12,614 nt of DNA from NCBI GenBank assembly GCA_026692885.1, contig JAPLNJ010000210.1, forward strand, positions 1 to 12,614, written 5' to 3'. Within the stretch, counting starts at the first letter, position 1. Every line of letters begins with the position of its first letter. A model generated the notes under the pieces. It was not told where the DNA came from. It did no database searches and worked only from the letters and a program-made list of their open reading frames with translations. The DNA is from Planctomycetota bacterium. Lineage in GTDB: Bacteria; Planctomycetota; Planctomycetia; Pirellulales; Pirellulaceae. Made by a program: the position numbers and the translations under genes. This document shows positions 1,768 through 12,481 of this stretch, in pieces.

Positions 1768-2274
1768 GTGGCTGGCTTTCTCACCACTGGCCTCCCGGTT
1801 GTCGTGTGCGGCATGCCGGAGGCCGAGCACGTGCTGAGCGTCGAGCACACCGAACGCCGCTTCAAGCAGCGGCTGACATTGCGCTGCTTCACGTGGCGCA
1901 CGCCACAAGGTCAGCGGGAGTTTTGTGGCATGCTGAAGAAGCTCGACGAGACGCTTCCGCTGGCCGAAACATCCAGCCTGGCGAACGCCGACTTGGCTGG
2001 CCGGTTCTATCTGGCCAGCCGCGGCGTGCCGGACTACTTGATGACGCTCGTTCGCGGTGCGGCGACCGAAGCGGTCCAGCGCGGCAACGAACAGATCGAG
2101 ATGGAAGACTTGTCGCGAATCTTCGAGCGTTGTCTCGCGCAACAGCACATGCTGGCACCAAGACTCGTTGCTACATGTCACAGCGGGGCAGGTCTGGCGA
2201 AGGTTCATTTCGGCGAGGGAAGAGAGGAAACCAGGGCATGCCGCCGACTCGGCCGCCTTTCCAAAGCGGGGTAA
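1768..2274 (+). pseudogene. tniB: C-terminal fragment of a TniB/TnsC-like transposition ATPase
   Basis: The frame follows a TAG at 1762-1764 and begins at GTG 1768, without a ribosome site. Its sequence 'GLPVVVCGMPEAEHVL', followed by 'ERRFKQRLTL', an 'LKKLDETLPL' block and 'GVPDYLMTLVRGAATEA', follows the order of the C-terminal half of TniB, the AAA+ regulator of Tn5053/Tn402-type transposition, just after the Walker B strand. Walker A and B are absent, and I could not find them in other frames upstream, so the 5' part is lost. Family-like sequence fades near codon 130; the remaining codons run into the convergent 3' end of the HD-PRTase gene. No tniA or tniQ is seen. It is a relic of a Tni-type element and cannot be an active ATPase. 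Confidence 0.7.
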
Positions 2275-4831
2275 GGGTTCCCGTGGGCGTGTTGTAGGCT
2301 AGTACGAGGAGTTGTTCCAGGCCTCCGTAGCCGAGCGCGTACTCGGCGCACCGCTCCGGCGTCCACTTGTCGGGCTGTTCTTCCCCTCGTGTTGTGCGCA
2401 GCAGATGTGTTCCAATCGCGGCAAGGAATTCTCGCAATTCGTTGGCCACCACATGGTCCAGGATTTCGTCTAGCGGCTTAGGGGCGGGCGAGACGGTAGT
2501 CACCGCGGAAACGTCCGAGCCCAGCCCAACTTCCTGGGTCAATTGCCGGAGGCTTTGCAGGCCGACAGTGGTGGCGCGGAGAAACCGAAATCGCGGCTTC
2601 CGATTCCTGAGCGTTTCCCGCTGTTGCTCGTTCAGTTCGTCGGCCAGGTCTTCATCGAGATCTTTGGGCTGACCAAACCAAGTCTGGATGATCGTTCGGC
2701 CCTGCTTCCCCGAGAGCAGGCAGTCGTCGAAAAAAGTGATCGGGCCACCTTGCGTTAGCGCCTGATCGAGAGTCACGGGTCTAGGCTGGCCAACATGATC
2801 GGCCAAAAAGTAACTCAGATGGGCCGCGCTCTTGTGAAGCTCTTTCGACAATGGGACGCATACGCCGCCGCCCGGCATCGCCTCGTAAATGGCAGCAGCG
2901 AACTGCTTTCCAAGTTCCGTACGATCAAGGAAGACCAACTTCTCCAGCACCCGGAGCATCGGCTCCACCAGTTTTTCCGGGAATTGATCCAGAAATGCCC
3001 GGATGCGCTCAGCATTGACGAGGATCGCGGTCCCAATGTTGTAGTGGGCGAAGCGGTTGGTGAGTTGCTCGATACGCAATACGCCCTCCGGCGTTTGTGG
3101 AAGGTACGATCTAGGCCGAATGAACCGGCAATCGTTGAACAGATCCGCTGTCGCCGCCTCAGCCAGCCGTTTGAGCCTTTCCACTCGTTGCCAGTCGATT
3201 TTTGCGTGATCTGCGGCAAGGCGCCCGAGCCCGAGACCGAACGCCGTTGCGATCAGCATCTCCGTGGCGAGAAAGACCAACTCACGCCCTCTTTGATCCG
3301 TCCCACCGACATAGATGTAGGAAATGGCGCGCGGATTATGAGCGAAAGCCGCGGCGTCGGCTGGGAACGATTCGCGTCGCAGGATGCTGCCATCCGGGCG
3401 CTCGATCAACAGATCCACTTCCGGCAGCTCAAACGGATCCGGCGGAGTATCCACCCAGATGTCACAGGGGGCCAGCGTGCTGCGAGTCAAGCCAGCTAGT
3501 TGGGACGCTCTTTGGTGAAGGTCGTGTTCAAGTTCTGAGCGCCGGCGCGGATCTGCAATCGCGCGTTCCAGGTTCGCCCACTCCTCGCGGGTTTCCTCCG
3601 GTACATCGGGACGCCCGTCCTCTCCGGCCGGCGCCGTATCCAGAAGGAAACCATAAGACAGCGCGAACGCTCGTCTGGGCAACTGCCGCAAGTTCAGCAT
3701 CGCAAGGTACGCGTGGTTTTCTTGCGGATGCTGGCTGACGGCGTACGGCGAAAAAAGACGATCATCCTCCGCCAGCAATTCGGCGGGATGTCGCTTCATG
3801 TTGGCCAGCATTCGCATTACGAGACGCTCCGCCGCCAGCGTCTTGTGATGGTGATAAACACGTTCGAACAACATCCCACGCGACAACGCCAAATCATGGG
3901 CGTGACGGAGTCCCGCCAAATCGGTACCGAGGACACGAGCAATCCCTGGCTCGGAGAAAATCCTCCGCAACGGATCAGGGCACCGCTTGGGATCGATGGA
4001 CAAGCAGCGCAGCTTGAACAGCAGCCGTTCAAGGTCCACGGCGAGCGGTACACCCGTGCAGAAGGCATCGCGAAACATGTAGTCCAGCTTGTCGGCATCG
4101 ATGATGTTCGTGATCAACTGTGCCAGAAATGCGCGTGCCAGCGAGGGTGGTCTACCCACAATTGAGAGCACAGCTTCCGCGATCTGGTCCTTCGAGAAGC
4201 CGGCGCCGGACGGTCCAAGGAGTGTCTGGAAACCGGGTGTCAATGCAAGGGCCAACGACAGGCATTCGGACAATCTCGGCATCCTTGCGGGGAGAGTGTT
4301 GGCGACCTCTTCTTTGAGTCGGTTGATGTCGCGTACTAGCTGCCCGTCGGTGCACTCGCGTTCCGTGTAGTACCGTTCGGCCACGTGGGAAAACGGCATG
4401 TGTCCCACATCGTGCAGCAGCGCTGCTAACCGCACGGTGGTTCGGTTGGCGAGCAGTTCCGCTTGTGACTCGGAGCGGGCAGCGATGGCGACAAGCATCC
4501 GCTCAGCTTGGTGCATCGCTCCTAGCGTATGTTCGTAGCGGCAATAGCCGGCCGTAGGGAATGTCAAGTAAGTCACACCCAGCTGTCGCACGAACCGCAG
4601 CCGTTGCAGCGGCGGGCTGTCCAGAACCAACATCTCCGGCGCCGTGAGATCGATCATGCCCCACACGGCATCCTTGACCGCCTTGGCCGATGGTTTCACT
4701 TGCTGGGCTTCCCGCGCAGCCAGATATTCAGTGATCGACCTGCCGATAAGTCCCTCGATGCGACCAACGAGGTCACCGAAGATGGCTTGCCGTTGAAGAT
4801 TTTCGACGACCTCAACCGCGTCCATTGTCAT
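2171..4831 (-). CDS. SAMHD1-like HD dNTPase fused to a phosphoribosyltransferase-like domain
   Basis: An 886-residue cytoplasmic protein with no signal peptide or membrane segment. Residues 70-345 form an HD phosphohydrolase domain: H101 in 'RYEHTLG', H140-D141 in 'LLHDVGH', and 'IDADKLDYMFRDAF' (D247, K248, Y251, D255), which parallels the metal and dNTP-binding 'IDVDKWDYFARD' of SAMHD1. Residues 600-875 look like a PRTase domain of the PRTase-CE type found in conflict systems: a helical lead-in ('FLDQFPEKL'), the PRPP loop 'ITFFDDCLLSGKQG' (D702-D703, S707-G708), and the C-terminal signature 'NTPTGTLTPLW' with 'PLFPRR'. Residues 350-600 match nothing I know. ATG 4831 follows the stop of the small gene by 12 bp, so the two are probably co-transcribed; an ATG two codons later is also possible. 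Predicted to hydrolyse dNTPs or a related nucleotide. Coupling to the PRTase and a defence role are inference. Confidence 0.85.
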   Translation of the reverse strand: MTMDAVEVVENLQRQAIFGDLVGRIEGLIGRSITEYLAAREAQQVKPSAKAVKDAVWGMIDLTAPEMLVLDSPPLQRLRFVRQLGVTYLTFPTAGYCRYEHTLGAMHQAERMLVAIAARSESQAELLANRTTVRLAALLHDVGHMPFSHVAERYYTERECTDGQLVRDINRLKEEVANTLPARMPRLSECLSLALALTPGFQTLLGPSGAGFSKDQIAEAVLSIVGRPPSLARAFLAQLITNIIDADKLDYMFRDAFCTGVPLAVDLERLLFKLRCLSIDPKRCPDPLRRIFSEPGIARVLGTDLAGLRHAHDLALSRGMLFERVYHHHKTLAAERLVMRMLANMKRHPAELLAEDDRLFSPYAVSQHPQENHAYLAMLNLRQLPRRAFALSYGFLLDTAPAGEDGRPDVPEETREEWANLERAIADPRRRSELEHDLHQRASQLAGLTRSTLAPCDIWVDTPPDPFELPEVDLLIERPDGSILRRESFPADAAAFAHNPRAISYIYVGGTDQRGRELVFLATEMLIATAFGLGLGRLAADHAKIDWQRVERLKRLAEAATADLFNDCRFIRPRSYLPQTPEGVLRIEQLTNRFAHYNIGTAILVNAERIRAFLDQFPEKLVEPMLRVLEKLVFLDRTELGKQFAAAIYEAMPGGGVCVPLSKELHKSAAHLSYFLADHVGQPRPVTLDQALTQGGPITFFDDCLLSGKQGRTIIQTWFGQPKDLDEDLADELNEQQRETLRNRKPRFRFLRATTVGLQSLRQLTQEVGLGSDVSAVTTVSPAPKPLDEILDHVVANELREFLAAIGTHLLRTTRGEEQPDKWTPERCAEYALGYGGLEQLLVLAYNTPTGTLTPLWKGGRVGGMPWFPLFPRRNEPSPDLPRCDM

Positions 4832-4843
4832 GGGGCAGCGCGC

Positions 4844-5239
4844 CTACCAAGCGGTTTTCAAGGCGGGAATCCCGTGTCCGAGATAGGCATTGGCCAGCCG
4901 GACGAAAAGCTCGCGTTGCTCTGGCGAAAAAGTCGCCAAAATCCGCTCCGCGCGCGACTCCGAGATGTCCAGATTAACCCCTGGATAGAAGGGATTCTGC
5001 GCACCGAGGAGCCCCCGCTGGAGACGCAACAAGGCGTCGTCCAACTCCCGATATCTTCCCGTGAACGGACTGGGAATGAACGTGCTCGGTACGCATGGGA
5101 ACTCCGCGGCGCATTCGCCGAGGAGCTCAACCACCTGCCGGAAACGATCATGGTGAAGGTCGTTCCGGGTGTCGATGAACTTGATTCCCTGCAGGCGCAG
5201 GGCAGCCAGAAGCCCCCTGAATAAGTCATCTCGATTCAT
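4844..5239 (-). CDS. Small conserved-looking protein of unknown function, partner of the HD-PRTase gene
   Basis: A 131-residue soluble protein, not recognised. ATG 5239 has a weak AGGA about 8 bases upstream. The N-terminal third is helical and charged ('MNRDDLFRGLLAALRLQGI'); the middle holds 'PSTFIPSPFTGRYRELD' and 'LLGAQNPFYPGVNLDI'; the C-terminus is again helical ('SPEQRELFVRLANAYLG'). There are no Cys pairs, no membrane segment and no nuclease or ATPase motif. It ends 12 bp before the HD-PRTase start, which suggests translational coupling and a shared role such as substrate specificity, activity control or immunity. G+C and codon use are like the neighbours, and the frame is clean, so I regard it as a real gene. 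Confidence 0.75.
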   Translation of the reverse strand: MNRDDLFRGLLAALRLQGIKFIDTRNDLHHDRFRQVVELLGECAAEFPCVPSTFIPSPFTGRYRELDDALLRLQRGLLGAQNPFYPGVNLDISESRAERILATFSPEQRELFVRLANAYLGHGIPALKTAW

Positions 5240-5268
5240 GCGTCATCCTGTCGCAGAGAGTTGAACCT

Positions 5269-5317
5269 ATTTCCCAAAATACACTGCACCAAACCAAAAA
5301 CTCACCACATTTCCCAA
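5269..5317 (-). repeat. Paired direct repeat TTGGGAAAT in the leader of the small gene
   Basis: The minus-strand 9-mer TTGGGAAAT occurs at 5309-5317 and again at 5269-5277, exactly 40 bp (about four helical turns) apart, in an A/T-rich 133-bp gap between the MerR-like gene and the small gene. The phase on the helix and the A/T-rich setting suit a binding site or a second promoter region, but two copies of a 9-mer are weak evidence. Confidence 0.35.
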
Positions 5318-5372
5318 CTAGCCAATTTTCTCTGAAACTCGCCGTCCACCAAGAACGCTTCGGTTCCGCGCA

Positions 5373-5843
5373 CTACGCAATTCTCTGCGACTTCCTGGCG
5401 GGCCGTCCCCTTGGTCTTACCCGTCCGTCCATACGGACGATCTGTTCGCGCACTTCCCGATCTACGTCCCCAGCCGCCGCCACGCTGAATACGAGTTGAC
5501 CGTTCGCCAACAAATCCTCAAGTACCGCCGGATCCCCTGTATGCCGATGAAGGGATCTGCCATCGGTAACAAGAACACCCCCAAGAAGAGGATCAGCGCC
5601 GTTTGCGTCCCGAAGCTTGCTCAATCCCTTCCGGATCTTTTGCAGGCTCAGACCGTTGTCGCGAAGGCGTTTTACGACTGACAGTCGCAGCAAGTCCTCG
5701 TATGAGTACCTGCGTTCCGATCCCTTGCCAGCGGCAGGTCTTACGCTTGGCGAGACGATTCCGCAAGCATCCCAGTGGGCAAGACACCGCTGAGATACGC
5801 CGACGATCTTCCTGGCCGCTGCTGCAGAGTAGTCCGTAGCCAT
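5373..5843 (-). CDS. MerR-family-like transcriptional regulator
   Basis: A 156-residue DNA-binding protein. Residues 3-30 form the MerR helix-turn-helix ('YSAAAARKIVGVSQRCLAHW'), residues 43-54 the wing ('SERRYSYEDLLRL'), and residues 55-80 the helix pair with 'VVKRLRDNGLSLQKI'. The C-terminal part ('LVTDGRSLHRHTGDPAVLEDLL', then 'GQLVFSVAA') is of the small type found in MerR-like regulators without metal-binding Cys, and the tail is Arg-rich. I chose ATG 5843 over the ATG at 5861 because the homology begins at 'MATDYS' and the upstream codons lie within the probable promoter. It heads the cassette with the small gene and HD-PRTase, 133 bp ahead of the former, and probably represses the operon and itself through the inverted repeat over its start. 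The effector, if any, is unknown. Confidence 0.85.
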   Translation of the reverse strand: MATDYSAAAARKIVGVSQRCLAHWDACGIVSPSVRPAAGKGSERRYSYEDLLRLSVVKRLRDNGLSLQKIRKGLSKLRDANGADPLLGGVLVTDGRSLHRHTGDPAVLEDLLANGQLVFSVAAAGDVDREVREQIVRMDGRVRPRGRPARKSQRIA

Positions 5844-5844
5844 A

Positions 5845-5880
5845 AAGCACAAGTAAAACATTCTTGTACTTATTTTTCAA
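5845..5880 (-). promoter_or_regulatory. Promoter with overlapping inverted-repeat operator; likely leaderless start
   Basis: On the minus strand, TTGAAA (5880-5875), a 17-bp spacer and TTTACT (5857-5852) form a sigma70-like promoter whose start would fall near 5845, two bases from the ATG at 5843. No room remains for a Shine-Dalgarno site, so a leaderless mRNA is likely. Over it lies a 9-9-9 inverted repeat, AAGTACAAG (5871-5863) and CTTGTGCTT (5853-5845) on that strand, 8 of 9 positions complementary. One arm is in the spacer and the other covers the end of the -10 and the start site, as expected for an autoregulatory MerR-type operator. Promoter strength and the regulator-operator match are inferred. 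Confidence 0.55.
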
Positions 5881-6186
5881 GACCCCGTGCCAAAAAACGC
5901 TGGTGCCTTGTGCTCACGAGCACGACCGGGTGGGAGGACTCGCCAAGTGGTTGCAGTCACCATCCTTTCCATATCGGCACTTGGCTGGTGAATCCGATCA
6001 CCAAAACCGTTCAGAGGCGAAGCCGAATCGGCCCACACGATTCACTCGGTGACCCGTACCGTTGGCTCTTGATCTAGGCCCGGCAGTTGGTGACCGATCC
6101 GCGTGACGAAAACTGCCGCTACGCGGTCAATCCCCAGCACGTCATCGCGTTTTCGACTTGGCCCGGCCACGGATGTGAGGAAAACT
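5881..6186. other. Gene-free stretch between the two cassettes
   Basis: This 306-bp stretch lies between the promoter of the MerR-like gene and the 3' end of the kinase gene. Short open frames exist on both strands but show no motif, and there is no hairpin with a T-tract to end the kinase transcript. A perfect 6-bp inverted repeat with a 2-base loop at 5910-5923 is the only structure I noticed. Confidence 0.45.
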
Positions 6187-8247
6187 TCAGTTGTCTTTGT
6201 CCCAGTCGGCTCTCGGCATGTGACGCTCGGCTTTCTTGAAGTCCGCAACCGCGCGATAACGCTCACCGATGTGAGTGTAGGCTAGCCCGCGGTTGTTGTA
6301 CGCCTCACCGAAGTACGGCTTAAATCGGACAGCTTCGGTATAGTCCGTTATCGCCTGGTGAAAGTCTTGCTTGCGGAGATGCACGTCGCCGCGATTCTTG
6401 TACGCCTCAGCGATCTCTGACCTAAACACCTCCGCGTAGTATGGCTTCAGTCGGATGGCTTCCGTGTAGTCCGCGATCGCACGATCGAAATCACCACTGT
6501 GGCGATGCATGTCGCCGCGGTTCTTGTACGTCTCGGCCGCGTCTGATGTCGATGACGAGACTGGGTCCCGGGTCGACGTCCCGGCCGTGTCCCGTCTCGA
6601 TGGCTCGGCCGAATCCAGTATAGATGGCCCGGCTAAGTCTGGTGCCGATGACCGAACTGGGTCCCGGGTCGACCGTCCGGCCGTGTCCCGTCTCGATGGC
6701 CCGGCCGAATCTTGCATCGACGGCTTGACTGAGTCGGGTGTCGCTCGCCCAACTGAGTCGGGTGCCGACGGACCGGCTGAATCTGGCCTCGACCGGCCGG
6801 CTGAGTCTGGTGGCGACGGCGAGGCGAAGCGTGGCGCTAACGGGATAGCTTTCGTCAAGGGTTCGATAGGACGTTCGTACTCCTCCTTTCGCTGGATTGC
6901 CTCGTCGCGGCTGCGATACGCCGTGACGTCGTCTGGCTTCAGCCGGATGGCTTCGCTGTACTCCACGATAGCTCGGTCGTAGTCTACTTTCAGTCGATAG
7001 GCCTCGCCGCGATTGTAGGAAGCCTTTGCAGCGTCTCTGGGCGTGAGCGTCCAAGAAAGCACTCCTATGAGAATCCCTAGCGAGACGCCACCGACCATCA
7101 CTGGGAGCCAAGGCTTTTTGGGCACCCTCGCAGGGGCGATCGGCTGCCCGACGATCTCCTCCGCTGACTCCAACTGACTGGGCACTGTCCTTCCAGGCGA
7201 TGTTACCAATGAGCTTGAATCGGTAGGAGCACGGGCAGACACGTCGAAGGTGCTACGTGGTCGCGCTCTACCGTGTAGCAGCGCATCGACTTCTCGCTCC
7301 TGGCCCCGTTCAAGGCGGGGCGAGCGTCCGTCGCCCAAGAGATCCCAGACCTGCGGCTCTCGTCCAAGGGGACCCTGGCTTGCCAGAACCAGTTGCCCCA
7401 CAAGCGAGTGAACGGACACGTCATTGGCGTTCCAAAGCTCCCGTAGAAGTTGCGAATTGCCAGGATCCTCAAAATCCTCCTTGGAGAACAATAAATTCTC
7501 CCCGTTATCGTGCCGCCCCCACAGCTCCCTGCCGCCAATGACGAGACACTTCAACGCGGTACAGATCAGAAGATTAGGGAACCGATCGACCTCGATGTTG
7601 TAAATGCCGCGTTTCAGTCGATCGGGATGTTGATAGTGTTCGTGCCCGTTCTCTCCCGACGGTACTTCCGCCAATTCTGGAACCCACATGCCGTCGTAGT
7701 CGACCAGCTTCAACTCTACTACGTCCGGCGTATTACCGGACTGCACAAGTAACACGTTCCCGTGGTACAGGTCACCGTGTGCCACCTTGGCAGCACGGAC
7801 TGTGCGGGCCAGCTCGACCCAATGCTCTAAAAGGGCTTCCAGGGTCTCCGGCCGACCAAGGTGTTCCCTGACAAATTGGTTGAGAGGTTTCCCCTTGATC
7901 CAACGCATCTTGAGGATCGGAAACCATTCCCCCCGTAGCGTTTTGACTCCTTCGGCATGATAAGAACAGTCGACGGTGTTGCGTATCCTTGCCATGACCA
8001 GGCGCTTGCAGATGCTGTGATACCGCTCCTCACGTCGAGGGACGTCCCGTGTGAAACACTTCACCGCCCACTTCTGTGCGTTGGGACATTCAAACTCGAA
8101 TACTGCGCCAAATCCGCCCGACACGGGAAGGAGAGGTACTCCGAGCGCATTCTTTACCACTTGCCCTGCGGTCAGATCGGGGTCCAGAAAGGAAATGTCG
8201 GGAAACTGCACTGCATCGCAGTATTCAGCCGGTGCGGGCCAAGACAT
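6187..8247 (-). CDS. Membrane-anchored Ser/Thr protein kinase-like protein with TPRs and octapeptide repeats
   Basis: A 686-residue protein, taking ATG 8247 ('MSWPAPAEY', where homology starts) over the TTG at 8268. Residues 1-300 are a kinase domain of the planctomycete YegI-like type: Gly loop 'SGGFGAVFEFE' (43-53), 'WAVKCF' with K63, catalytic 'HGDLYHGN' (157-164, with Gly in place of the usual Arg of HRD), and 'LVDYDG' (D183) replacing DFG. Residues 380-400 are one hydrophobic segment, with basic residues before it, which predicts a cytoplasmic kinase and an external C-terminus. After it come a TPR (405-440), twelve octapeptide repeats (476-571) and further TPRs (572-677, 'GDFDRAIADYTEAIRLKP' type). 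It is the last gene of the vWA-PP2C-kinase cassette. It probably phosphorylates proteins opposed by the PP2C; substrates are unknown. Confidence 0.88.
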   Translation of the reverse strand: MSWPAPAEYCDAVQFPDISFLDPDLTAGQVVKNALGVPLLPVSGGFGAVFEFECPNAQKWAVKCFTRDVPRREERYHSICKRLVMARIRNTVDCSYHAEGVKTLRGEWFPILKMRWIKGKPLNQFVREHLGRPETLEALLEHWVELARTVRAAKVAHGDLYHGNVLLVQSGNTPDVVELKLVDYDGMWVPELAEVPSGENGHEHYQHPDRLKRGIYNIEVDRFPNLLICTALKCLVIGGRELWGRHDNGENLLFSKEDFEDPGNSQLLRELWNANDVSVHSLVGQLVLASQGPLGREPQVWDLLGDGRSPRLERGQEREVDALLHGRARPRSTFDVSARAPTDSSSLVTSPGRTVPSQLESAEEIVGQPIAPARVPKKPWLPVMVGGVSLGILIGVLSWTLTPRDAAKASYNRGEAYRLKVDYDRAIVEYSEAIRLKPDDVTAYRSRDEAIQRKEEYERPIEPLTKAIPLAPRFASPSPPDSAGRSRPDSAGPSAPDSVGRATPDSVKPSMQDSAGPSRRDTAGRSTRDPVRSSAPDLAGPSILDSAEPSRRDTAGTSTRDPVSSSTSDAAETYKNRGDMHRHSGDFDRAIADYTEAIRLKPYYAEVFRSEIAEAYKNRGDVHLRKQDFHQAITDYTEAVRFKPYFGEAYNNRGLAYTHIGERYRAVADFKKAERHMPRADWDKDN
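6535..6822 (-). repeat. 24-bp tandem coding repeat (12 octapeptide units) with a 96-bp higher-order copy
   Basis: Inside the kinase gene, twelve in-frame 24-bp units encode variants of G-P/R-S-x-x-D-S-A, for example GRSRPDSA, GPSAPDSV and GPSRRDTA. Units 6-7 and 10-11 are nearly identical in DNA (6656-6713 and 6560-6617, 96 bp apart), evidence of a recent block duplication on top of an older tandem array. The product is a flexible Ser/Asp/Pro/Arg linker between TPRs, on the predicted non-cytoplasmic side. Confidence 0.85.
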
Positions 8248-8396
8248 TAGCGTAATCTTTAATCCCAAACAGCGCTACTCTGAGCACATGGAGGCCGGAT
8301 GCAACATGCGGCGTCGAAAACATCGGGAGTTGTCTTCGAATGTGGACGGTCTTGTGTTGCTTACTATGCGATTGAACGCCCGAGAGCGTCATAGCC

Positions 8397-9131
8397 TCAA
8401 ACCTCGACCGCGAGCAGGGTAACATCATCATTTCGAATCGCCCCCTGAATGCGAATTTCTCGTATCCAAGCCTGGAACTGATCATCCGCTACGGATGCAG
8501 TTAGCAGGCCGTAGAGCGTCCCCCACGGATTCGTCCCCGCTTCAAACCCTCGCAAGAACCACTGCGCCAATGCGTCGGTCATTAACAAGAACCAATCGCC
8601 CTCTTGCCAATCTCCTGCGATGCAATTCTTCTTCGTCCGCATGACGTCGATCTCACAAAAACGTGAGCCCAGGAGCCCCGGACAAACGGTGAAGTCGGCG
8701 GAATGCTTCACCGGGAATTTCTCTCGCAACTGGCCCTGACGAAGTTGGAATACGCAGCAGTCGCCGACCGCGACAGCGTGCCAGCGGCGATGCGCGATCA
8801 CGAGTCCTAGGAAGGTGGCGAAAGCGCCTTCCTCGAATTTTGGTATGGCATAGTACTCAAGATGCCTACTCCCAATATCACTCAACCACTGGCCTTGGAG
8901 TGGCGGTAGCCATTTCGTCCACCTTGATGCCCACGGGACCGGGATTCGTATGAACTCGTGCACCAACAGTTGCGCCCATGCGGCGGCAAACGAACTCTGA
9001 GATGCACCATCGGCTATCGCAAACCGGCTACGTTTGATGTCAACTGCGCAGGCGTCTTCGAATTCGTCGTCGGTATTGCCTCGCTTCGCTACCCGAAAAC
9101 ATCGTGTTCGCTTCCCTGTGCCGTCCAACAT
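8397..9131 (-). CDS. PP2C-like protein phosphatase
   Basis: A 244-residue protein with the PP2C metal-binding acids in order: 'EFEDACAVD' (E26-D27), 'RFAIADGASQSS' (D41-G42), 'GAFATFLGL' (102-110), 'AVAVGDCCVF' (D124), 'LLMTDALAQWF' (D186) and 'RNDDVTLLAV' (D235-D236). The fold is compact, with no membrane segment. I prefer ATG 9131 because family-like sequence begins at 'FRVAKRGN'; a TTG at 9197 would add 22 residues with no recognisable content. It is 126 bp after the vWA gene and 149 bp before the kinase gene on the same strand. Expected role: removal of phosphate from Ser/Thr of proteins phosphorylated by the neighbouring kinase, or of the kinase itself. Equivalent to YegK of E. coli by position and family. 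Confidence 0.87.
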   Translation of the reverse strand: MLDGTGKRTRCFRVAKRGNTDDEFEDACAVDIKRSRFAIADGASQSSFAAAWAQLLVHEFIRIPVPWASRWTKWLPPLQGQWLSDIGSRHLEYYAIPKFEEGAFATFLGLVIAHRRWHAVAVGDCCVFQLRQGQLREKFPVKHSADFTVCPGLLGSRFCEIDVMRTKKNCIAGDWQEGDWFLLMTDALAQWFLRGFEAGTNPWGTLYGLLTASVADDQFQAWIREIRIQGAIRNDDVTLLAVEV

Positions 9132-9257
9132 GCTGCGCCCAATCCCAAATGGCCCGTGTCCATTCAGACGGCGCGTATTCGATATACTCGCCGCCAACCT
9201 CTGTCAGAAATCTCGTGAATTGCACGGCGGGGCACACCGGGGCTTGCACAGTACCCC

Positions 9258-10361
9258 CTACCGCAGGTTTCGGTGGCGGCGCGTCCCCAAGTCCAGGAAC
9301 TTGTACACGACTACCAAGTCCGCGTTAAAGACCAAACCGCGCGTGTCGTCGGTTACGTTATAGCCTTCAAGACGCGCAAACTGCTGCATGGGCGGCGGCA
9401 GCCTGCTCGACATGCGGAACAACAACTGGGCGTTCTCCGTGGGCAATTCCTCCTCACTCATAGGGAATTCAATCGGTGGACTGGTGTGGGACGAGATATG
9501 AGCGTTGAACAACACAACGTTGCCGTTTGTCGAAGTGAGTGCCCTGAGTGCCTCCGCATGGGGCTCGGGAGCCCCGTCGGTTTGTCCGCCGTCGGTCAGA
9601 TTGATAACGATCGGGGGATAGCATGCCGGCTGGTTTTCGATAAAGTCCTGGACCGTTCGTTTCGCGAGAGCAAGTGCTTCGCACATCGGTGTCGTACCGG
9701 CAGCTTCAGGTTTGATCCAAATGGGGCTATCTACGTTCTTTGTTACTGACTTGCCACCCCCGATAGCGATTTCCATTGGGCGTTTTTCCATCCCGATCGG
9801 CGCGGCAGCAATCTCGCTAACACGCACCAGTGTCCGCCCCACTAACTTGCCACCCCATGCACTGTCAACGCGGCTGCCGTAACCGATCACGCCAACGTGA
9901 AAATAATCGAGAATGCCCTCGGATCCGTTGCACACGATGACCAAGTTGTAAAGTTGGCGGTTGATCGCGATGGCCAGGGCGTCAGACTTCTTCTGCCCCG
10001 ACTGCCCACCGAAGGGTTCGTCCATGGACTCGGATTGGTCAACCAGGAACAGAAGGCACGAGGGCCTGTCCCGGCAGATTTCTGCCGTGTACGGAAACAG
10101 ATCGGGAACCATTCTCGCCTCGCGCCAATCGCCCTGTTCGCGTCGGCGAACGTGGGTGATGAGACGCACCTCGCCCTCCATCACCCTACGTTTCAAATCG
10201 GCGAATGTCAGCGGTCCTTTGAGGGGTGGGCCACCCTCCCAGTAAAACCACTCGGATGGACCCGGCACCGGGACCGTTGGGGCGACCGGTTGGCGTCCTT
10301 TCGGATCCGATACCCACGCGGGCCGCACTGGTTGCTGATCTGAGCGTCCGGTTTCAGTCAT
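9258..10361 (-). CDS. GYF-domain plus von Willebrand factor A (TerY/YegL-like) protein
   Basis: A 367-residue cytoplasmic protein. Residues 37-90 form a GYF_2-like domain ('EWFYWEGGPPLKGPLTFADL') which by family binds proline-rich peptides. Residues 101-300 form a vWA domain with a complete MIDAS: 'LVDQSES' (D108, S110, S112), 'GTTPMCEAL' (T223/T224) and 'NLTDGGQTDG' (D257). The C-terminus 'VYKFLDLGTRRHRNLR' is of a type seen at the end of TerY-like proteins. ATG 10361 is chosen over earlier in-frame ATGs because GGAGGT sits 4 bases before it. First gene of the triad with PP2C and kinase, so probably a metal-dependent scaffold that brings these two to a target. The role in stress or defence is known only for relatives. 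Confidence 0.9.
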   Translation of the reverse strand: MTETGRSDQQPVRPAWVSDPKGRQPVAPTVPVPGPSEWFYWEGGPPLKGPLTFADLKRRVMEGEVRLITHVRRREQGDWREARMVPDLFPYTAEICRDRPSCLLFLVDQSESMDEPFGGQSGQKKSDALAIAINRQLYNLVIVCNGSEGILDYFHVGVIGYGSRVDSAWGGKLVGRTLVRVSEIAAAPIGMEKRPMEIAIGGGKSVTKNVDSPIWIKPEAAGTTPMCEALALAKRTVQDFIENQPACYPPIVINLTDGGQTDGAPEPHAEALRALTSTNGNVVLFNAHISSHTSPPIEFPMSEEELPTENAQLLFRMSSRLPPPMQQFARLEGYNVTDDTRGLVFNADLVVVYKFLDLGTRRHRNLR

Positions 10362-10365
10362 ACCC

Positions 10366-10371
10366 ACCTCC
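10366..10371 (-). promoter_or_regulatory. Shine-Dalgarno site that fixes the vWA gene start
   Basis: GGAGGT on the minus strand, 4 bases before ATG 10361. The earlier in-frame ATGs at 10379, 10391 and 10418 have no such site, so the shorter protein is the likely product. Confidence 0.75.
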
Positions 10372-10430
10372 AACGTCATGGCTACAAGCATGGTAACAAA
10401 CTGGCGCCCACTACTCAACCATGCCCGGAA

Positions 10431-12135: not shown

Positions 12136-12270
12136 TCAGCGAAGACGGTGTTGCCTCCAGTGGAAGCACCCCAAGTCCGGCAACGGATGCTTGCGGCGCC
12201 GCTGCAACGCCACGGCGCCTTGGTAGTCGGCTTCCGCCTTGGAGACCCATTCAGCAGTGAGCCGTTTCAT
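12136..12270 (-). pseudogene. HEPN-domain toxin remnant (44 codons)
   Basis: ATG 12270 overlaps the 3' end of the nucleotidyltransferase gene by 20 bases, the usual arrangement of MNT/HEPN pairs. The product 'MKRLTAEWVSKAEADYQGAV', then 'LQRRRKHPLPDLGCFHW', is the start of a HEPN domain (first helix 'WVSKAEADY'; 'CFHW' at the start of the second helix). It then leaves the family and stops at 12136. A full HEPN protein is about 130 residues, and the catalytic R-x4-6-H motif lies in the missing part, so no RNase activity is expected. Too short to be picked by usual gene callers. Confidence 0.7.
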
Positions 12271-12481
12271 ACAGGACTTTATCCTCTTCCAGGATTTGGC
12301 GAAGGAAGAAATCCCCCAGCTTCAATCGCCGCTGGAGTGTTTCCGGCGTATGCACGACGAGGTCGAGGCCGAAGGGGCAGTCGATCGCCTGCCGGATGAG
12401 CAGGGACTGTTCGCCAGGGCGATCGGTGCGCATGACGACCAACAGATCCACGTCGCTTTCGGGCCGGGGGCGACCGCGCAA
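12251..12481 (-). pseudogene. Minimal nucleotidyltransferase (MNT) antitoxin, 5' damaged
   Basis: The frame reads 'GRPRPESDVDLLVVM' (D-x-D metal-binding pair), then 'LDLVVHTPETLQRR' and 'GDFFLRQILEEDKVLYE', the standard order of small MNT proteins that pair with HEPN toxins. The G-S-x-x-x-R-G loop expected just before 'RPRPESD' is absent in this frame. Here the frame starts at TTG 12481; upstream it stays open but does not resemble the family. A neighbouring frame holds 'GYNFAR' in the right place, so a 2-base deletion near 12478 may have broken the gene. Normal MNT proteins AMPylate the HEPN partner; this one lacks part of its active site. It overlaps the HEPN remnant. Confidence 0.65.

Follow-up and report, generated by a model that had tools for sequence, protein, structure and literature searches.

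An apparently undescribed cassette with a SAMHD1-type core, a small partner and an exchangeable C-terminal effector: a candidate anti-phage system

RESULTS

We analyzed a 12,614-nucleotide stretch of a Planctomycetota genome (contig JAPLNJ010000210.1; "the window"), in which three genes encode a fusion of an HD and a phosphoribosyltransferase (PRTase) domain, a small partner protein, and a MerR-like regulator. Comparison with related loci supports a cassette that is conserved but patchy in its distribution: the SAMHD1 core and the small partner are constant, and the C-terminal effector is exchangeable. It looks like an apparently undescribed, mobile system directed against viruses. We lean slightly toward reading the HD-small-MerR cassette as a mobile anti-phage (conflict) system with a swappable effector, a defense function that we infer. 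A preliminary description of this DNA had proposed a nucleotide-targeting conflict system. The recurrence of the genes and their defense-gene company speak for that proposal; the MerR-like gene proved inconstant, the promoter and operator were not confirmed, and mobility of the HD-PRTase is indicated by one viral contig and by its patchy occurrence.

The HD gene and the small gene recur together

Homologues came from a species-genome collection (16 loci), viral contigs (30), plasmids (41 records), and phages (11 records). Twenty-three loci with the window's HD type were chosen partly after their gene order had been seen, and the selection was thus not blind, least of all where it took in L014 and L020, which are short forms. 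Judged by record title, the chosen loci span Actinomycetota, Planctomycetota, Pseudomonadota, Myxococcota, Acidobacteriota, Chloroflexota, a Desulfosarcina plasmid, and viral contigs. HD is joined to PRTase-CE in the window, L001 to L006, L009, L010 (where the two parts lie in different reading frames), L011, L013, and the viral contig L018. Another C terminus follows HD in L007, L008, L017, L019, and L047 to L049, and HD proteins are short or cut in L012, L014, L020, and L051.

The small gene lies directly upstream of the HD gene in 22 of the 23 chosen loci; the exception, L002, has it downstream and on the opposite strand (12993-13403). Of 79 other HD loci with 900 or more bases of upstream sequence, one has the small gene (L078, with a split HD gene), which places it in one further Planctomycetota genome. 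L002 is labeled as a Bifidobacterium breve metagenome-assembled genome, a label that its loosely ordered genes and its base composition make doubtful. In 10 of the chosen loci, versus 1 of the 79 others, a MerR-like gene is found no more than 1.5 kb upstream; the profile was built from five of those ten genes, and of the remaining five, two give weak matches (3e-4 and 5e-4). By eye, another regulator-like gene is divergent in L005, L008, and L009, that of L008 giving sub-threshold MraZ and AbrB matches. The divergent MerR-like gene of L010 (8443-9147, minus strand) also carries a DUF433 domain. HD genes of Klebsiella, Vibrio, Sinorhizobium pB, and Thermomicrobium were set aside on the grounds of differing annotated upstream neighbors, a reading of gene order made with no small-protein profile scan.

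Distances between HD cores track those between small proteins (r 0.906 over 31 pairs, comprising the 23 loci and 8 pairs joined through equal-sized contigs); none of 5000 permutations was as high, and shared descent contributes to this value. Among the matches listed, at least 9 of 77 HD clusters, including the window's, sit on contigs equal in size to that of a small-protein cluster, against a chance expectation of 0.5 with one table shifted; the other 68 have no size-matched small-protein cluster among those matches.

With at most two best candidates scored per genome, the full fusion was found in 1 of 392 Planctomycetota and 1 of 396 Actinomycetota genomes sampled, each being the seed genome, while HD matches of any kind occurred in 179 and 66 of them, respectively. 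The small gene was likewise limited to seed genomes (2 of 235, 1 of 251, and 1 of 398 sampled). Solitary homologues in core chromosomal positions would have told against the preliminary description; the fusion is rare and patchy, with the small gene alongside it in nearly every chosen locus. These distributions also bear on whether the protein is an ordinary enzyme of nucleotide metabolism that couples dNTP (deoxynucleoside triphosphate) breakdown to base salvage. Both domains do come from nucleotide-acting families, and HD-type matches as such are common in Planctomycetota, but confinement of the full fusion to the seed genomes, substitution of a nuclease-like domain for the PRTase among relatives, and a copy within a phage tail block (L018) make this explanation very improbable.

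The HD-PRTase protein has a SAMHD1-type core

Profile searches, which the preliminary description had proposed, gave scores above the Pfam cut-offs for both HD (PF01966; 35.1 bits, cut-off 22) and PRTase-CE (PF24390; 69.2 bits, cut-off 27), the latter match covering profile positions 1 to 253 of 253. The structure model of the protein has a mean pLDDT of 94.2. By column counts in the alignment, the PRTase-CE loop holds D702, D703, S707, G708, and Q710. In a Burkholderia plasmid (L050, 7062-8909, plus strand), a PRTase-CE domain (residues 336-612) ends a 615-amino-acid protein without HD.

Model and alignment place the protein with SAMHD1-type HD dNTPases by both its catalytic-core fold and its HD metal site. 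Structural alignment (model residue 47 to chain residue 113) sets SAMHD1 numbering at window position plus 66; the roles of the equivalent residues in the metal and dNTP sites are those we assume from general knowledge. At positions 101, 140, 141, 247, 144, 149, 152, 248, 251, 255, and 318, the expected residue is present in 73 to 76 of 78 alignment rows, and the deviating rows are mostly gaps. Sixty-eight rows have F or Y at position 322 (SAMHD1 H370), and 57 have K at position 53 (SAMHD1 N119); position 152 is E in the window protein, where we take the SAMHD1 counterpart to be D218. The earlier statement that all metal and dNTP residues are in place was confirmed at the 11 positions listed; 322 and 53 deviate. 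Equivalents of SAMHD1 D137, Q142, and R145, which we take to form the guanine-binding allosteric site, are kept in 72, 73, and 72 rows. The core is of the SAMHD1 type in fold and metal site, and dNTP hydrolysis is its predicted activity. It differs from SAMHD1 and from bacterial SAMHD1-like dNTPases (PDB 2o6i, presumably EF1143, is one such enzyme) in the PRTase-CE fusion and the dedicated small protein, with dNTPase activity a prediction here.

The C terminus is exchangeable

Seven loci share an alignable protein of about 800 amino acids that ends in GGETDL...VxENK...QARRY. The C-terminal end of L008, used as a query, retrieved 48 proteins, all with the HD core and none with the PRTase profile; conversely, the new C-terminal profile was found in 0 of 77 PRTase-group relatives. 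The pattern D-x(n)-(E/Q/D)NK is present in all 48 proteins, a stricter version in 26, and Q..RY in 47. We take this pattern to resemble the PD-(D/E)xK nuclease motif and refer to the alternative C terminus as a putative nuclease-like domain. It had no Pfam match in L008 or L047 and no match to one Shedu-annotated protein; its best sequence match in the PDB (E 0.0097), a designed helical protein, was taken as chance. We call the HD-PRTase and HD-nuclease-like sets groups rather than clades. The short forms L014 and L020 have no C-terminal effector and retain the small partner.

Exchange of this kind raises the idea that the HD core acts as a sensor or gate for nucleotides, in which (d)GTP or dNTP binding drives assembly and only the C-terminal enzyme does harm. 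A constant core with an exchangeable C terminus would suit such a gate, as would the conserved D137, Q142, and R145 equivalents. The catalytic and metal residues are equally conserved, however, and the short forms keep the partner with no effector to fire, so we consider it unlikely that the core only senses.

The small partner protein matches no recognized family

In a 104-row alignment of the small protein, P83 is invariant and N82 is present in at least 90% of rows; the structure model has a pLDDT of 86.2. At an E threshold of 0.1 it matched nothing in Pfam, PADLOC, or NCBIfam, in line with its earlier description as a small unknown protein, and the best PDB sequence match (E 0.34) is at chance level. 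The best fold match was PDB 7yk3 chain B, at 9% identity and with a score that common arrangements also reach. We take this chain to be a DarG domain from the DarTG toxin-antitoxin complex; unlike DarTG, the cassette has no DarT-like partner.

The fold match and the tight two-gene order with the small protein first would fit a toxin-antitoxin pair serving its own maintenance, with the HD fusion as toxin, the small protein as antitoxin, and the MerR-like protein as repressor, and some members do sit on mobile carriers. Large two-enzyme proteins and effector exchange fit defense better, though, and a toxin-antitoxin role can coincide with a defensive one; we find self-maintenance quite doubtful as the explanation.

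Kinship with YwgA was considered because YwgA-like genes adjoin other SAMHD1-like HD genes, and it was unsupported by profile comparison (hhalign probability 0.4% and 1.8%), so that it serves as no more than a lead. Such genes adjoin SAMHD1-like HD genes that have no small gene in L015, L016, L021, L022, L023, L024, L036, L041, L055, L074, L084, and L091. Eleven of these 12 pairings were recognized by motif and L015 by eye; L022 and L023 are identical. These pairs likewise set a smallish protein beside the HD gene, whereas profile homology to our small protein has a probability below 2%. The YwgA-like protein is possibly a parallel partner of SAMHD1-like HD proteins.

Comparison with known systems

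In Clover, CloA, an HD dGTPase, is restrained by its partner CloB (PMC12265719). The cassette shares a predicted HD nucleotide hydrolase, a co-encoded partner that would restrain it, and a presumed part in phage defense (PMC12265719); it differs in that CloB is a Pol-beta-type nucleotidyltransferase, whereas the cassette partner has 131 amino acids and no family match. Against the PADLOC dGTPase model, the HD-PRTase protein of the window scores only a weak match, 8e-4 across 30 residues. Membership in Clover was rejected, as no CloB-type nucleotidyltransferase adjoins the HD gene; a nucleotidyltransferase-like fragment is located some 6 kb past the MerR-like gene. This short open reading frame (ORF; 12251-12481, minus strand), which looks like a fragment, has sub-threshold HalB and MntA matches.

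PRTases are probable retron effectors (PMC12548924, PMC9122126), a DprA-PRTase pair is protective (PMC9122126), and type III-A retrons include a winged-helix protein as well (PMC12548924). The cassette likewise has a PRTase as its probable effector, but fused to a SAMHD1 core and with no reverse transcriptase or DprA among the scanned window genes. PADLOC PRTase_III-A models match at 4.9e-7 in the window and 1.2e-21 in L009. A type III-A retron was rejected, with no reverse transcriptase in the 10 of 73 window ORFs scanned and no Rfam match in the window; the cassette is flanked by the gene of a TPR kinase and by a short ORF that is AAA-lid-like.

In the open-license literature searched, we found neither the combination of HD-PRTase and small partner nor the term "PRTase-CE"; an earlier paper that named conflict effectors of this kind may already mention HD-PRTase proteins. 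DefensePredictor lists a PRTase among its validated systems (PMC13092281), and overlap with the cassette is possible.

Defense-gene company and carriers

Homologues had been expected beside known defense genes, and at inspected loci they are. An HD-PRTase gene lies between hsdR and hsdS/hsdM (type I restriction) in L013, adjoins hsdR in L005 and a ThsB-like TIR gene in L011, and is near an HNH effector-like gene in L001. In the HD-PRTase group, 6 of 10 neighbor ORFs match defense models and 4 do not; these data are no enrichment test because the ORFs were picked by eye. On the Rhizobium plasmid pRheCIAT894c, a nuclease-like copy adjoins ptuB (6.8e-31) and ptuA (4.3e-109), with Tle1-like and SMODS genes further along, and annotated nucleotidyltransferase, ThiF, and Mov34 genes are near the nuclease-like copy on the Desulfosarcina plasmid. 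On viral contigs, the pair in L018 is on the strand opposite to its neighbors, a tail tape-measure gene to one side and a minor tail gene to the other, and the short form in L020 adjoins an integrase. The small-protein alignment was too variable to lead to more viral relatives, and scans of viral contigs with four single HD proteins returned only contigs already known.

In the window, 325 bases from the cassette, genes for a TPR-repeat kinase, a PP2C phosphatase, and a vWA protein of the TerY type that carries a GYF_2 domain span 6187-10418 on the minus strand (PADLOC matches 2.8e-61, 7.3e-32, and 1.4e-76, in that order). We take these neighbors to be a TerY-P triad.

A proposed mechanism and departures from the preliminary description

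In the mechanism we propose, the small protein would bind the HD protein and hold it off. A phage-driven change in the (d)NTP pool, read by the SAMHD1-type allosteric and catalytic sites, would free the HD protein, and the freed core would hydrolyze dNTPs. The C-terminal effector would add a toxic step, through a PRTase-CE using phosphoribosyl pyrophosphate or a nucleotide, or through a nuclease, and the MerR-like protein may limit expression. That the cassette defends against phages, that events follow this sequence, and that the small protein is an inhibitor are what we infer from the analysis as a whole. The scheme is plausible because Clover (PMC12265719) and PRTase effectors (PMC12548924, PMC9122126) set precedents. 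More tentatively, the cassette could belong to a modular prokaryotic immune family in which a complete SAMHD1 core would be more than a dNTP hydrolase: restrained by a dedicated inhibitor of winged-helix type, it would act as sensor of the nucleotide pool and as platform from which exchangeable fused effectors (PRTase-CE or nuclease) are fired.

Several results weaken or modify the preliminary description. The prediction that the gene trio recurs in unrelated genomes is borne out for the small gene and in part for the MerR-like gene, which fewer than half of the chosen loci have. The PRTase-type domain, earlier described as part of the effector, is not the defining part, because the related group carries the nuclease-like domain in its place. 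None of the 41 plasmid or 11 phage records matches over at least 80% of the HD-PRTase, and its case for mobility is thus one viral contig and patchy occurrence. A promoter and operator belonging to the cassette had also been claimed, and sequence scans did not exceed chance: 4800-6200 holds one sigma-70-like site, within the small gene, versus 0.4 expected; no inverted repeat was found in the MerR-small gap (5240-5372), which has a 9-nucleotide direct repeat at 5269 and 5309; and only chance-like dyads were found near the MerR start. Neither Rfam families nor tRNA were found in the whole window.

SAMHD1 is a central human restriction factor. If a prokaryotic family does join its complete catalytic core to a dedicated small partner and exchangeable effectors, SAMHD1-type enzymes would be tied to phage defense, on/off switching of their cores could be studied by a simple route, and there would be a clue to how PRTase effectors act in retrons and DprA pairs.

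Cassette genes and flanking DNA

The ORFs agree with the earlier description of three minus-strand genes in a compact cassette (Table 1), the small gene and the HD gene being 12 nucleotides apart. The regulator was rightly called MerR-like (Pfam MerR_1, 47.8 bits, cut-off 21.6); an inner ATG at about 5843 is an alternative start and may be the true one.

Table 1. Positions of cassette genes and domains in the window
Feature	Coordinates	Strand	Basis
HD-PRTase fusion, 886 aa	2171..4831	minus	ORF, Pfam HD and PRTase-CE, structure model
SAMHD1-type catalytic core, residues 47-572 of the fusion	3116..4693	minus	Structural alignment
PRTase-CE domain, residues 610-873 of the fusion	2213..3004	minus	Pfam, alignment column counts
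Small partner protein, 131 aa	4844..5239	minus	ORF, alignment, locus recurrence, structure model
MerR-like regulator, 162 aa as called	5373..5861	minus	ORF, Pfam MerR_1

A 168-amino-acid ORF at 1768-2274 (plus strand) has a weak AAA_lid_3 match below the cut-off (E 0.017). By eye it looks like the terminal part of a TniB/TnsC-like transposition ATPase, and it is possibly a transposon remnant beside the cassette.
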